A stretch of 45,015 bases of DNA from positions 1 through 45,015 of the forward strand of contig ONYS01000025.1 in assembly GCA_900322095.1 (NCBI GenBank). The letters run 5' to 3'. Positions 1 through 32,255 of this stretch are shown here, one piece after another. Numbering within the stretch: position 1 is the first letter of the stretch; every line of letters starts with the position of its first letter. The position numbers and the translations under genes were made by a program. This stretch comes from an uncultured Prevotella sp. (lineage in GTDB: Bacteria; Bacteroidota; Bacteroidia; Bacteroidales; Bacteroidaceae). The notes beneath the pieces were generated by a model that worked only from the letters and a program-made list of their open reading frames with translations, ran no database searches and was not told the DNA's origin.

Positions 1-71
1 TTCCCTTACTACAACAAAGGTAAAAATTAACCGAGAAACAACAAGGTTTTACCCTCGTTTTCTATCAACTG

Positions 72-99
72 CAAAGGTAAGGTGACAGTTGTCACGCAA
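72..99 (-). promoter_or_regulatory. Leftward Bacteroidetes-type promoter with an embedded palindrome
   Basis: On the minus strand TACCTTTG (79 to 72) fits the -7 consensus TAnnTTTG, and a TTG lies at 99 to 97, 17 bases upstream. A second minus-strand TACCTTTG lies at 22 to 15. Both point out of the window to the left, so the gene served is not visible. The palindrome GTGACAGTTGTCAC sits between the two boxes of the first promoter, the position of a repressor site. The promoter is consensus matching; the operator is inference. Confidence 0.45.
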
Positions 100-122
100 A
101 AACGTGACGGTTGTCACGAAAA
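81..122. repeat. Two-unit 22-bp palindromic tandem array (array 1)
   Basis: Units start at 81 and 103, exactly 22 bases apart. Each contains a 16-mer of the form CGTGAC(A/G)GTTGTCACG, which has 7-bp inverted arms around a two-base centre (the first base of unit 1 is G, and unit 2 has GACGG), followed by an A-rich spacer. The same unit occurs five times at 28778-28881. It lies directly upstream of a leftward promoter. Confidence 0.85.
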
Positions 123-5110: not shown

Positions 5111-5131
5111 TGTGTGTAGGAGACCCCAATC

Positions 5132-5280
5132 TAGACCCACCCCCGTCTAGACCCACCCCCAACCCCTCCCTACAAAGGGAGGGGAGAAGCAGGCGGTGGG
5201 TAAACGGTAGGAGCGCATAGGAGGGAGGGGAGAAGCAAGCGGAGGGTAAATGGTAGGAGCGCATAGGAGGGAGGGGCTAT
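5132..5280. repeat. C-rich dispersed repeat, two adjacent copies
   Basis: CTAGACCCACCCCC occurs at 5131-5144 and again, slightly changed, at 5148-5160. The second runs into AACCCCTCCCTacaaAGGGAGGGGAGAAGC (5161-5190), whose CCCTCCCT/AGGGAGGG arms form a hairpin. A second partial copy of the right half, with the words AGGGAGGGGAGAAGC and GGTAGGAGCGCATAGGAGG, follows to 5276. The same repeat occurs at 16909, 17911, 18130 (inverted), 29067 (inverted) and 39046 (inverted). No gene is present between 4982 and 5639. Confidence 0.7.
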
Positions 5281-5435
5281 AAAATCTGTGGTCATCGGTG
5301 GCAACTAAGAGAACAATATCTAACCTCTGTCAGCAATCATCAACTTCTGTCATCAGTTGTTATTTTCAGTTTCGTTCCGACCAATCGTCCCGTTTTTCAT
5401 ACCATCAAACGAGGCGATATCGCTATGATAATGAT

Positions 5436-5515
5436 GGTTGGCACGTGGTAGCAATATGGTTACCACGTGGTAGCAATGTAGTTGCCACGTGGTAGCAATA
5501 AGGTTGGCACGTGCC
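5436..5515. repeat. Four-unit 22-bp palindromic tandem array (array 3)
   Basis: Units start at 5436, 5458, 5480 and 5502, an exact 22-base period; the last is partial. The shared core is TTGCCACGTGGTAGCAA with small variations, containing the palindrome CACGTG within longer imperfect inverse arms. The sequence differs from arrays 1 and 2, but period and architecture are the same. No promoter consensus is seen next to it. Confidence 0.85.
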
Positions 5516-26315: not shown

Positions 26316-28669
26316 GAAGCATTTTTCTTACTATCGTTCTTTTCCTGTGCACCGTGCTCAGCGCCGGTGCACAGGGACCGTTTAGACCGCAGGAAGGCTG
26401 GATAGGCAGTCCCGAGGGGAGCCCGCACGATTATGGCGTCTACTATTTCCGCAAGGATGTCCGGCTCTCGTCGGTGCCCAAGTCCATGAGAGTGCAGGTC
26501 TCGGGCGACAACCGCTATAAGCTCTTTGTCAACGGCCGTCAGGTGGCGCTGGGGCCGGCCCGGAGCGATCTCAGCCACTGGAACTGCGACCTCATCGACC
26601 TGGCTCCCTATCTGCGTCAGGGCATCAACGTGGTCGTGGCCAAGGTGGTCAACGAGGGCGCCTTGCGTCCGGAGGCCAATATGACTTATCGCACGGCTTT
26701 CATGCTGCGTCCCGTCGACGATGCTGCCCGCCTGCTGATGACCGACAGCAGCTGGAAGTGCATCCTCGACCGTGCATATGCTCCCCTGTCTGTCAGCGTG
26801 CCCGGCTATTATGCTGCAGGACCCGGAGAGATGGTCGATATGCGGCAGACCGTGGCCGACTGGAATGAGCCTACTGCCGACCTGAGCCGTTGGAAGCCGG
26901 CCGAGGTGGTGGCACCCTTCACCGACAAGGACGTCTGCTCTCCATGGGGCACCTATCCCGGATGGCTGCTTCAACAGAATCCTCTGCCCCAGATGGAACT
27001 TTCGCCCGAAAAGCTGCTCACGCTGAGGAAGGTTGTGGGAGTAAAGCATCGCCTGGGCGACTTCCTTGGCCTTGACTCCATCGTGGTGGCTCCGCACTCC
27101 GATGCCGAACTGATCTTCGACCAGCGCTACCTCACCAATGCCTATCCCACGTTGGACTTCAGCTGGGGCCGCGGAGGCAGTGTCGTGCTGGGCTATGCCG
27201 AGGGGCTCTACGACGTCCGGATGCGCAAGGGCAACCGCAATGACCTTGAGGGCAAGCACTTCGTGGGCCGCAGGGACAGCATCCTGCCGGACGGACGTGC
27301 CCACCAGCTGTTTACGCCCATGAGCTGGCGCACCTACCGCTACATCGTGCTCCGCGTGCATACGGCCGATGAGCCGCTCGCCGTCAACAGTCTGCAGGGA
27401 GAGTTCACCGGTTTCCCCTTCCGTCTGCAGGCCAGTCTGGACACCGACAGCAAGATGCTCCGGCAGATGATGGATATCGGATGGCGCACGGCCCGCCTCT
27501 GTGCCATGGAGACCTATATGGACTGCCCCTATTATGAACAGCTGCAATACTTTGGCGACGCCCGTATCCAGGCGCTGGTGAGTCTGATGATGACTGGCGA
27601 CGAACGACTGGTGAGGAACTTCCTCAATATGGCCGACCGCAGCCGCAGTGCAGCCGGAGTGACCCAGAGCCGTTACCCCTCCAATCTGCCGCAGTGGATT
27701 CCCACCTACGCCCTGCATTATATCTATGCCCTTCACGACTATATGATGTATGGCCGCGACATGGACTTCCTAAAAGACAAACTGATGGGCATGAGAGCCA
27801 TCCTCGACTACTTCCACCATTATCAGCAGGCCGACGGTCGGGTGGGGAGCGTACCCGGCTGGGATTTTACCGACTGGGTGGATGGCCGGACCAACTGGAA
27901 AGACGGCGTGGCACAGCCCGGCAGCGATGGCTGCAATGCCGTGATGGACCTACAGCTGCTCTATGCCTATCAGATGGCTGCCGACTTGGAGCGGCATTTC
28001 GGGATGAATGACTTTGTCTCGCTCTATCAGGCACGGGCCGGGCAGTTGCGGCAGTCGATACAGCAGCGCTATTGGCGTGCAGGGCGTGGACTCTACTCAG
28101 ACCGCGCCGACTCTGACGTATTCTCGCAGCACGCGGCAGCCCTTGCCATCCTCACAGGACTCGTTGAGGGCGACAGCGCGACCGAGATGGGCAGGGCCAT
28201 AGAGAGCGACACCACTCTGGCGCCGGCCTCCATCTACTTCAAGTTCTACACCCATCAGGCGATGATCCATGCCGGTTTGGGCGACCACTACCTGCAGTGG
28301 CTCGGCAAGTGGAAGGAGAATATCGACCTCGGAATGACTACTTGGGGCGAGACCTCAGACGTCGAGGCTACCCGCAGCGACTGCCACGCGTGGGGCTCGA
28401 GTCCCAACATTGAGTTTATGCGCACGCTGCTGGGTATTGATTCCGATTCTGCCGGATTCGCCTCGGTCAGGATAGAGCCGCACTTGTGTGGACTCACTCG
28501 GATTGGCGGACGCATGCCTCATCCGAGGGGGATCATCGGCGTGAACTATCAACTGAAGGGAAAGAAGCTGAAAGCCCGTATCGAGTTGCCGAAGGGCCTT
28601 AGCGGTATCTTCATTTGGCAAGGGCAGCAGCTGGCGCTCCACGAAGGTCTCAACGAGTTCAGCATTTAG
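26312..28669 (+). CDS. Alpha-L-rhamnosidase, GH78 family
   Basis: A 785-residue exported glycosidase that should release terminal alpha-L-rhamnose. A signal peptide covers residues 1-21 (to AGAQ). The N-terminal beta-sandwich (about 22-175) contains DNRYKLFVNGRQV, typical of the rhamnosidase N-terminal domain. The catalytic (alpha/alpha)6 barrel starts at about residue 385. The active-site loop DCPYYEQLQYFGD has Asp404 and Glu409 at the places of the catalytic acidic residues in the family's DCPxxE motif, and TWGETSD lies at about residue 680. The C-terminal beta domain (about 700-785) is present. I use the ATG at 26312, which overlaps the esterase stop, rather than a TTG at 26297 inside the esterase gene. 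Rhamnose released would feed the rha operon at 39210-44706. Confidence 0.88.
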   Translation: MRSIFLTIVLFLCTVLSAGAQGPFRPQEGWIGSPEGSPHDYGVYYFRKDVRLSSVPKSMRVQVSGDNRYKLFVNGRQVALGPARSDLSHWNCDLIDLAPYLRQGINVVVAKVVNEGALRPEANMTYRTAFMLRPVDDAARLLMTDSSWKCILDRAYAPLSVSVPGYYAAGPGEMVDMRQTVADWNEPTADLSRWKPAEVVAPFTDKDVCSPWGTYPGWLLQQNPLPQMELSPEKLLTLRKVVGVKHRLGDFLGLDSIVVAPHSDAELIFDQRYLTNAYPTLDFSWGRGGSVVLGYAEGLYDVRMRKGNRNDLEGKHFVGRRDSILPDGRAHQLFTPMSWRTYRYIVLRVHTADEPLAVNSLQGEFTGFPFRLQASLDTDSKMLRQMMDIGWRTARLCAMETYMDCPYYEQLQYFGDARIQALVSLMMTGDERLVRNFLNMADRSRSAAGVTQSRYPSNLPQWIPTYALHYIYALHDYMMYGRDMDFLKDKLMGMRAILDYFHHYQQADGRVGSVPGWDFTDWVDGRTNWKDGVAQPGSDGCNAVMDLQLLYAYQMAADLERHFGMNDFVSLYQARAGQLRQSIQQRYWRAGRGLYSDRADSDVFSQHAAALAILTGLVEGDSATEMGRAIESDTTLAPASIYFKFYTHQAMIHAGLGDHYLQWLGKWKENIDLGMTTWGETSDVEATRSDCHAWGSSPNIEFMRTLLGIDSDSAGFASVRIEPHLCGLTRIGGRMPHPRGIIGVNYQLKGKKLKARIELPKGLSGIFIWQGQQLALHEGLNEFSI

Positions 28670-28703: not shown

Positions 28704-28752
28704 GAGCCACAGAAAGTATGTAGTCAACTGACTGCTTGACTTTCTGTGGCTC
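28704..28752 (+). terminator. Terminator hairpin of the GH78 operon
   Basis: GAGCCACAGAAAG (28704-28716) pairs perfectly with CTTTCTGTGGCTC (28740-28752). No good T run follows, so efficiency is uncertain. Confidence 0.55.
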
Positions 28753-28777
28753 ATTGTGCTCTATGTGATTAATGTTT

Positions 28778-28881
28778 CGTGACGGTTGTCACGAAACAAC
28801 GTGACAGTTGTCACGCATGAACGTGACAGTTGTCACGTATGAACGTGTCGATTGTCACGAATAAACGTGACAGTTGTCACG
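28778..28881. repeat. Five-unit 22-bp palindromic tandem array (array 2)
   Basis: Units start at 28778, 28800, 28822, 28844 and 28866, an exact 22-base period. The core is CGTGACAGTTGTCACG (units 2, 3 and 5 exact; unit 1 has GACGG; unit 4 has GTCGA) with 6-base spacers such as CATGAA, TATGAA and AATAAA. It shares its unit with array 1 at 81-122. No promoter consensus lies next to it. Confidence 0.9.
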
Positions 28882-29017
28882 CATCATCTGTAAGTGATGT
28901 TTGTTATAAATATGGCTGAAGGCCACAATATGAATCTTGCCGAAGCGTTAATAATTTTCTTTCTCGTGCTCAGTCGGATTTGCTGTGATAGGAGTGAGAA
29001 ATAGAATCGGCATGTAG

Positions 29018-29186
29018 CGTCGTCATTCCTGATGAGCCTCCTACCATGCGGCGTCCCGTGTTTGAGCTCCCCTCCCTTTGTAGGGAAGGGGAGGAGGTGG
29101 GTCTGCTATCGGACCTCCTTTCTTGGTCGTCAGGAATGACGACCCTCCTACTAACATCAGTTGCGCCAGCCGAAAATTATGAATTA
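29018..29186. repeat. Repeat island: REP / C-rich / REP / AATTATGAATT
   Basis: A degenerate REP-like palindrome (29018-29037), an inverted C-rich repeat (CTCCCCTCCCTTTGTAGGG, about 29067-29103), an exact REP copy GGTCGTCA-ggaa-TGACGACC (29125-29144) and a GCGCCAGCC-AATTATGAATT block (29163-29186) lie between two convergent genes. The stretch 28882-29017 shows nothing I can identify. No gene is present between 28670 and 29183. Confidence 0.65.
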
Positions 29187-29993
29187 TGAATTACTTTGCC
29201 GTTTCCGCATTTCTGAGGGCGGCACTCCCATCACTTGTTTGAAGGCACGATTGAAGTTGGCGGGGGTACTGAAGCCGGTGGCATAAGCCACTTCCTTAAG
29301 GGCCATGGTGTTGTCGGCCATCAGTTCCAGGGCACGTATCACGCGCTGATAGCACAGGTAATCGCTGAACGTCGTGCCGGCCTCACTGAAGAGTCGGCTG
29401 AGCGTTCGCGGTGAGACTCCGGCGGCCTTTGCGGTGTCCTCAACCTTTACGTTGTCGGCAAGATGGACGTGCAGGTAGGCCATCGCCTTGCGCAGCGTGG
29501 GCGGCGTGTCGGCGTCAATGCCTCTGAGTGGCAACATCACCTGCCTCTCCTCCTTACGGAACGTGTGGAAGAAAGAGAGACAGAAGGCATAGAGCCCTGT
29601 GTCGTCTCGGCTGATGACTGGACCATACCCGACGATGAAGCGAAAATTGGTCGAGGCCCATGGACAGACATAATGAACGGAGAAATTGTCGGCCTTGCTA
29701 TCCGCTGCATCCTCTGGCGAGAAAAAGAAAAAGCGAAGGACGATGCGGCGGTTGCAGCTGGTCAGCGCATGTACGGTATTGCTCGGTATCCAGCAGGCAT
29801 AACCTTCCGGCACGAAATATTCCCGATCGTTCACCATCACGTGCAGCGTACCCGTGACCGCCTCGACCAGCTGAATGCGATTGAGGCTGTAGGGTTCCAG
29901 GTTGATGCCCTCGCGTCCAGTGACCTTGACAAACACCTTGTCGCTCGAGGCGGCGCCTACTGAATTGATGAAAGTTCTTTGTTCCTCGTTCAT
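29184..29993 (-). CDS. AraC-family transcriptional regulator with cupin sensor domain
   Basis: A 269-residue cytoplasmic regulator. The N-terminal half is an AraC-type cupin (INLEPYSLNRIQLVEAVTGTLHVMV, then EYFVPEGYACWIPSNTVHAL, about residues 30-90), a possible small-ligand pocket. The C-terminal AraC DNA-binding domain is at about 165-265, with helix-turn-helix units VEDTAKAAGVSPRTLSRLFSEAG and LKEVAYATGFSTPANFNRAF. It is divergent from the MBL/MoaF-like gene at 30152. The two -7 boxes are only 6 bases apart, so one bound regulator could control both. The start ATG is preceded by AGGAA at a good distance. Inducer unknown. Confidence 0.9.
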   Translation of the reverse strand: MNEEQRTFINSVGAASSDKVFVKVTGREGINLEPYSLNRIQLVEAVTGTLHVMVNDREYFVPEGYACWIPSNTVHALTSCNRRIVLRFFFFSPEDAADSKADNFSVHYVCPWASTNFRFIVGYGPVISRDDTGLYAFCLSFFHTFRKEERQVMLPLRGIDADTPPTLRKAMAYLHVHLADNVKVEDTAKAAGVSPRTLSRLFSEAGTTFSDYLCYQRVIRALELMADNTMALKEVAYATGFSTPANFNRAFKQVMGVPPSEMRKRQSNS

Positions 29994-32194: not shown

Positions 32195-32207
32195 GGGGGG
32201 CTTTTTC

Positions 32208-32255
32208 TATAGTTTCAATAGTTGCTATAGTTACTATAGTTGCTATAGCTTCTAT
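32208..32255. repeat. 9-base tandem repeat
   Basis: The words (C)TATAGTTG, TATAGTTAC and TATAGCTTC recur in steps of nine bases, beginning TTCAATAGTTGCTATAG. The stretch lies just after the dioxygenase gene and before the next promoter. Confidence 0.55.

Follow-up and report, generated by a model that had tools for sequence, protein, structure and literature searches.

What is a row of five near-palindromic units, set at a fixed step between two genes of an uncultured Prevotella sp., and does it belong to those two genes or to something wider in the genome? The array lies in a window of 45,015 nt, by which is meant the whole stretch of contig ONYS01000025.1 (assembly GCA_900322095.1) that was analysed. 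An initial annotation, made from the letters alone, saw it as typical of cooperative binding by a dimeric protein.

The array and its surroundings

The features of the window are listed below.

28778-28793, 28800-28815, 28822-28837, 28844-28859, 28866-28881, + strand: units of the type-A array, with 6-bp spacers
28772..28777, + strand: left end motif ATGTTT of the array, of the ATGTCT/ATGTTT class that recurs at many other arrays
28882..28887, + strand: right end motif CATCAT of the array, recurring at several other arrays
81..118 (81-96, 103-118), + strand: two-unit type-A remnant, 1 mismatch per unit, left side cut by a mobile-element end
1..80, strand not applicable: end of a multi-copy mobile element and also the contig end; such ends adjoin units at contig ends in this genome
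5434..5513, strand not applicable: 22-bp tandem array of 3.6 units, unit ATGGTTGCCACGTGGTAGCAAT, without TGAY-N4-RTCA
26354..28669, + strand: flanking gene, alpha-L-rhamnosidase family, stopping 109 bp ahead of the array
29184..29993, - strand: flanking gene, AraC-family regulator, convergent with the alpha-L-rhamnosidase-family gene

The five-unit type-A array at 28778..28881 (+ strand) has unit starts at 28778, 28800, 28822, 28844 and 28866, exactly 22 bp apart as had been claimed, and its units carry, in order, 1, 0, 0, 3 and 0 mismatches to CGTGACAGTTGTCACG on the + strand. With at most 3 mismatches, CGTGACAGTTGTCACG matches the two strands of the window 14 times, versus a mean of 0.43 and a maximum of 4 in 100 shuffles. 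The 16-mer, annotated as a palindrome, does have dyad arms, CGTGAC/GTCACG, but it is an imperfect one with the centre AGTT. Two turns of relaxed B-DNA come to about 21 bp; the step is exact at 22 bp but slightly above the two helical turns with which it had been equated.

A second copy had been placed at 81-122. Two units are indeed present, starting at 81 and 103 with 1 mismatch each, but the pair (81-118) is what remains of an array truncated by a mobile-element end, which is also the contig end. Window bases 1-80 are one end of this multi-copy element, whose body was not found in the contigs examined. Bases 1-100 match 14 places, all of which continue past base 80 into a unit, to base 91 or beyond, 13 of the 14 having been displayed via a search word that itself contains GTGACAG. 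The other element end was met at 18 places, 5 of them matching only another part of the query, and a unit of class A or B (defined below) stands directly before the element in 13 of the 13 displayed junctions. Judging from these junctions, the element seems to choose array units as its target, or to carry the start of one.

A DNA search of 100 genomes gave no relative matching the whole window-array region, so no empty site is readable. A terminator-like inverted repeat, GAGCCACAGAAAG...CTTTCTGTGGCTC, lies at 28704-28752, in the gap that separates the rhamnosidase-family gene from the array. Other dispersed intergenic repeats of the window, of the GTCAGGAATGACG... and GGGAGGGG/TAGGAGCGCATAGG types, are found at 5130-5276, about 200-230 and about 29067-29151; the relative G115 has matches to 29067-29151. 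Tandem repeats with CTATAG every 9 bp, with 18- and 27-bp periods too, form a separate class at several loci of this genome (window 32204-32255, L094:3637-3752, L223:17280-17388).

Copies across the genome

The window's own genome (G000) is a draft of 3.51 Mb, 87 % complete. In it GTGACNNTTGTCAC has 208 strand-wise matches (95 + 113, perfect palindromes counted twice) versus 1 for the reversed control, and there are 199 GTGAY-N4-RTCAC pairs spaced at 22 bp versus 0. The genome scan for the unit at 22-bp periodicity, suggested with the initial annotation, makes the window array a member of a genome-wide family. A chance origin of the arrays, in window or genome, is rejected, the match counts being far above shuffles and controls. 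Two dyad classes are told apart by their centres, RNTT in A and GGTC in B, and together they make up at least 59 arrays, a lower bound that comes from 52 genome stretches plus the window, with 40 of 76 candidates scored. Neighbouring A/B units are 22 bp apart in 264 of 291 cases, units having been chained only at 12-23 bp, so that longer gaps are absent from the 291 distances. Five units is the commonest array size (20 of 59). Among single-class runs, omitting those that the mobile element truncates or that lie close to a contig end, runs of five account for 16 of 43 in class A and 12 of 41 in class B, and single units for 8 and 13, respectively.

None of the 59 arrays lies inside a predicted gene, where gene calls, made with a home-made codon score, cover 77 % of the sequence; one array, in L093, extends about 14 bases into a predicted gene. 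For the 38 arrays with both neighbours called, 14 gaps are divergent (37 %), 17 co-directional and 7 convergent, the window array being among the convergent ones, and all gaps of at least 150 bp (n=111, the arrays' own included) comprise 30 divergent, 63 co-directional and 18 convergent. The gap contexts of the arrays are much like those of all gaps, with no clear preference. Within the 70 of 79 flanking proteins that were scanned, HTH_18 is the commonest among the best 25 of 116 Pfam families with 3 proteins, and GH3 parts, Fn3-like and HTH_AraC are found in 2 each; no function is common to the neighbours, no family of these best 25 exceeding 3 of the 70 proteins.

These contexts bear on whether each array is an ordinary cooperative operator that controls its neighbouring genes via a CRP/FNR-like regulator. 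Such a reading would fit the CRP/FNR-type order of the half-sites and the share of arrays in divergent gaps (14 of 38, versus 30 of the 111). However, 7 of the 38 arrays lie between convergent genes, the window array included, the neighbours are without a common function, and the contexts resemble gaps in general rather than promoters of regulated genes, where CRP/FNR operators would stand. We regard it as improbable. A single operator of one gene pair is rejected, at least 59 arrays of the same dyads lying between unrelated genes; what had been named as a possible operator is one of many dispersed cassettes copied whole. The phage-decoy and partition roles put forward with it gained no support in this analysis. 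A CRISPR-like array is rejected as well, the spacers being 6 bp long, recurring and position-specific.

Five-unit runs in which all spacers are 6 bp (16 A, 11 B) have spacers that go with their position in the array: same-position versus different-position identity is 0.75 versus 0.60 in class A and 0.68 versus 0.56 in class B, a difference reached in 0 of 2000 permutations in either class. Left flanks have A at -6 in 90 % of 51, those with a mobile-element end or fewer than 45 bases having been dropped, and ATGTCT or ATGTTT is common there; right ends are often AGACAT, CATCAT or TATCAT. An inverted end pair, ATGTCT...AGACAT, occurs at some arrays, and a loosely defined end motif matches 66 of the 118 A/B ends. 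A and B cassettes are often together, joined directly or via a similar linker. Spacers that keep to their position and shared end motifs recur from locus to locus, which makes the cassettes dispersed copies of one bounded non-coding element, as in a MITE with tandem units. Because five-unit arrays share position-specific spacers, the pattern is read as copying of whole cassettes, MITE-like, by a putative mover, in which case part of the likeness among arrays would be recent copying. An ordinary slippage satellite is insufficient, with spacers position-specific across loci and the same step in other unit families.

The arrays could be no more than a self-spreading minisatellite or MITE without a host role, in which some transposase copies the cassettes and the palindrome and step are needed by the mover or by hairpin-based replication, or are merely inherited. 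This is a serious possibility, if a doubtful one. It would account for the position-specific spacers of both classes, the end motifs and similar linkers, the absence of all 59 arrays from predicted genes without clear context preference, and the patchy occurrence within the genus; a precedent is described for BrickBuilt of P. gingivalis, with a leader, 23-nt repeats and a tail (PMC4596501). However, a constant 22-bp step while the letters differ across families and species is poorly explained by simple inheritance, no target-site duplication is visible by eye in the array flanks, and no transposase is found among the array neighbours (best 25 of 116 Pfam families, the other 91 being in few proteins each).

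One particular mover, the RAYT (Y1 HUH) transposase of REP/REPIN-type elements, is disfavoured and scarcely credible here. REP elements are likewise short palindromes dispersed between genes, but Y1_Tnp (PF01797) has no match in the own draft genome (87 % complete) or in G129, G206, G310 and G125, and is found in 5 of 10 array-rich versus 6 of 10 other genomes. The arrays also run head-to-tail, whereas REPs are described as mostly head-to-head or tail-to-tail dimers tagged GTAG or CGTC (PMC3733652).

The 22-bp step within and beyond the genome

The leading tandem period in the own-genome stretches examined (TRF and lag scan) is 22 bp. Over lags of 14-35 bp, scans of the array loci give 58 arrays at 22 versus 8 at all 21 remaining lags taken together, and scans of 253 kb of other own stretches, chosen away from the A/B arrays then known, give 10 versus 9, one of the ten being of A/B type. 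The CTGAY-N4-RTCRG dyad type has 59 strand-wise pair matches (up to 1 mismatch) at about 28 places, with 0 in the control, and longer arms, e.g. CTGC...GCAG or CGTC...GACG. The TTACC type, TTACCNCTCGGTGGTAA, has 45 unit matches with no more than 1 mismatch; they lie at about 15 places, in some as single units, and the control again gives 0. A TGA-N6-TCA dyad is the consensus of A, B and CTGAY units and is absent from the TTACC family and the 5434 array; the TTACC family, the 5434-5513 array and one G024 array are without TGAY-N4-RTCA. Arrays of all families occupy about 100 intergenic places (59 arrays plus 28 and 15 places, a few of which adjoin). WCCGAG as a leader motif common to the families was tried and is weak, occurring at 4/14 TTACC, 3/34 CTGAY, 1/124 A/B and 1/18 other ends, with a background of 11/1063.

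Neighbouring units were compared in 62 A/B arrays of the own genome, picked by overall 22-bp self-similarity and not by core, which makes the test less biased. They agree at 1569/1671 half-site positions (0.94), at 693/831 of the four central positions (0.83) and at 1182/1611 of the eight between-dyad positions (0.73), and the conserved cores and variable spacers first noted in the window are borne out. The contrast is smaller in 17 CTGAY arrays, with 324/374 (0.87) at half-sites, 0.85 in the centre and 328/422 (0.78) in the rest. A separate per-position unit table is biased to the core, by which its units were picked. An array that closely follows the same stop codon in both G160 and G018 differs at 10 of 80 positions and at 0 of 32 half-site positions (p=0.004), a value that is untrustworthy because both loci were found with a pattern demanding half-sites in three of the four units; the fourth unit, the sole one free of this selection bias, differs at 1 of 15 bases, a central one. 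This orthologous pair is accordingly rejected as proof of half-site conservation.

Complementarity within the dyad was tallied over 268 distinct units (213 own, 55 from relatives). Pairs 7 and 8, which flank the core immediately, are complementary in 0.87 and 0.74 of units versus 0.71 and 0.58 when re-dealt, an excess reached in 0 of 1000 shuffles for each, where the units were picked by core and the shuffles ignore relatedness, which inflates the figures. In the relatives alone, the two pairs give 0.45 and 0.55 versus 0.31 and 0.30, reached by 16 of 1000 shuffles for pair 7 and 0 of 1000 for pair 8. Pairs 1, 3, 9 and 10 do not exceed chance (0.18, 0.79, 0.27 and 0.17 versus 0.31, 0.81, 0.33 and 0.34). 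The own non-A/B units that pass the pattern number 8, too few to use.

A dyad of this kind could also act in RNA, where the transcribed array would be a set of hairpins that terminate transcription, stabilise a 3' UTR or bind a protein. For the + strand of the window array the folding energy is -64.5 versus -37.1 kcal/mol for shuffles (z -7.7), and one relative array begins a few bases past the stop codon in two species. Good folding is, however, expected of any palindrome array, the loop letters vary, and in co-directional gaps the arrays run 10 with versus 7 against the genes, the direction of a near-palindromic unit being weakly defined. No Rfam match falls at the arrays in the 8 sources scanned, and a known RNA family is rejected, the sole pass at gathering score being a tRNA in L224. 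We consider an RNA element very improbable.

The initial annotation would have the array present in relatives. Its own sequence fails there: none of 59 relatives, of which 35 belong to the genus and 24 to the order, has a type-A pair at 22 bp, and GTGAY pairs occur in 2 of 397 other genus genomes, with 4 matches in G310 (3) and G030 (1). Pairs of the inner core TGAY-N4-RTCA at 22 bp, with arms that vary, are found in 43 of the 397, giving 125 matches, genic and intergenic counted alike, versus 14 matches in 10 genomes for the reversed-pattern control; 354 of the 397 have no match. The richest are G129 (21), G310 (13), G206 (11), and G016 and G086 (8 each). Twenty relative loci, preselected for a 22-bp pair, have 2-6 units each, with differing arms.

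With the distance left free (14-38 bp), the inner core gives 139 matches in 78 relative genomes, and the control 20 in 16. Among the 75 of 139 matches listed, 27 by hand count are at 22 bp, in 14 genomes, and the remainder are 16 at 19, 8 at 30, 4 at 23, 4 at 32, 2 at 18 and 14 elsewhere, some loci being entered once for each of two species. Pairs examined at 19 and 30 bp resemble TTGAC-N4-GTCAA operator pairs. Proteins beside them (34 of 35 scanned) include UPF0014 and PAD_porph, 4 each; the 34 proteins contain 17 families, without a CRP/FNR regulator among them. TTGAC-N4-GTCAA pairs at 19 or 30 bp (L349-L368) are present in a number of genus genomes, with UPF0014 or PAD_porph beside some.

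Lag scans of genus relatives gave one array at 22 in G024, one at 22 in G016 and, in others, one each at 14, 18, 22 and 24; G310 gave two at 22, in stretches chosen for matches. Other families of the order (273 kb) gave none at 22 and one at 23, and 50 kb of E. coli gave no array. The same 22-bp step with different letters in some related species suggests that the spacing may be measured by something in the cell.

A possible binding protein and known systems

The reading ranked first, held tentatively and at somewhat less than an even chance, is that of dispersed dyad cassettes for a putative homodimeric DNA-binding protein whose dimers would pack side by side at 22 bp. In it, the window array is a single copy of a cassette, with five 22-bp units in about 104 bp and short end motifs, that has spread by whole copies to many gaps between genes of the own genome. 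Each unit is a dyad with half-sites TGAY-N4-RTCA; one homodimer would bind it, and adjacent dimers would pack cooperatively at the fixed step. The outcome would probably be a local nucleoprotein patch or protein sponge, and not the control of one promoter, because the arrays sit in divergent, co-directional and convergent gaps alike. Local regulation is unlikely, since no Pfam family of the best 25 is in more than 3 of the 70 flanking proteins; therefore the dimer platform or sponge is placed first and the minisatellite second. The protein, its family, the cooperative packing and the cellular role are things that we infer.

The dimeric-protein site of the initial annotation is supported in part, in that half-sites vary less than spacers and the step recurs in relatives with other letters, but no binding protein for the arrays was found. 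Against the dimer platform stand the 22-bp families that lack the TGAY-N4-RTCA core (TTACC, the 5434 array, the G024 array). Against its CRP/FNR link stand the operator-like TTGAC-N4-GTCAA pairs of the genus, which are spaced at 19 or 30 bp and not at 22.

A bolder form, which we think rather unlikely, would extend the platforms across the genus. A fast-changing putative dimeric binder would hold the 22-bp step and the inner half-sites invariant, the letters co-evolving with it in the manner of centromeric satellite DNA and its binding proteins, and the platforms would spread as cassettes and become landing pads for a site-choosing mobile element.

ArgR binds tandem palindromic boxes, and SlmA, Noc and MatP have dispersed nucleoid sites. 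The arrays are like these in having palindromes that may be bound side by side, or that are dispersed over the chromosome; they are unlike them in sequence, in their tandem 22-bp arrangement and in having several families per genome.

The nearest published relative is BrickBuilt of P. gingivalis, and the arrays are placed here with the repeats dispersed between genes; they may yet be a ruler-based platform of a wholly new kind. BrickBuilt is described as a dispersed non-coding element with a leader and tail around tandem units, there of 23 nt (PMC4596501), and the same paper cites 22-nt tandem repeats in strain W83. Compared by description, the arrays differ in their 22-bp unit, in several families per genome and in mostly TGAY-N4-RTCA dyads; the main text of that paper has no word beginning "palindrom". 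REP and GTAG/CGTC-tagged palindromes are, as described, also short, dispersed and intergenic (PMC3733652), whereas the arrays are head-to-tail at a fixed step, with no Y1 transposase found in the draft. No description of these arrays was found in open-licence PubMed Central full text.

If a protein measures the step, the arrays would be a natural experiment in which the site letters were replaced repeatedly while the geometry was held, and the share of spacing in cooperative assembly would be directly testable. If they are selfish DNA, they would be an unusual minisatellite whose period outlives its sequence. Either way, the units stand at about 100 intergenic places, are host to a mobile element and fall at breaks in the draft assembly.

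The half-site order TGAC-N4-GTCA is that of CRP/FNR-family operators, e.g. the candidate sites TTGACnnnnGTCAA given for the FNR-family regulator HcpR in two cyanobacteria (PMC1274295). The same paper gives GTAACnnnnGTTAC for a branch including most Bacteroides, a point against the link. Unlike such operators, the arrays often have five tandem sites at 22 bp, in many intergenic places and without promoter logic. GTGAC-N4-GTCAC pairs in other organisms were found in 30 genome_contigs stretches, a scan that may omit records of or near the own genome, and 2 in viral_contigs; many of the 30 have single operator-like pairs. Proteins beside these pairs (54 of 63 ORFs scanned) include a cNMP domain in 4, Crp HTH in 3 and cytochrome c7 in 5. 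With cNMP domains in 4 of 54 neighbours, the CRP/FNR link is weak and may serve as a lead. Clostridial genomes (Acetivibrio, Herbivorax, Clostridium sp.; L147, L154, L156, L162, L165) have several GTGAC-N4-GTCAC hairpin-like units close together, some of them at 22 bp.
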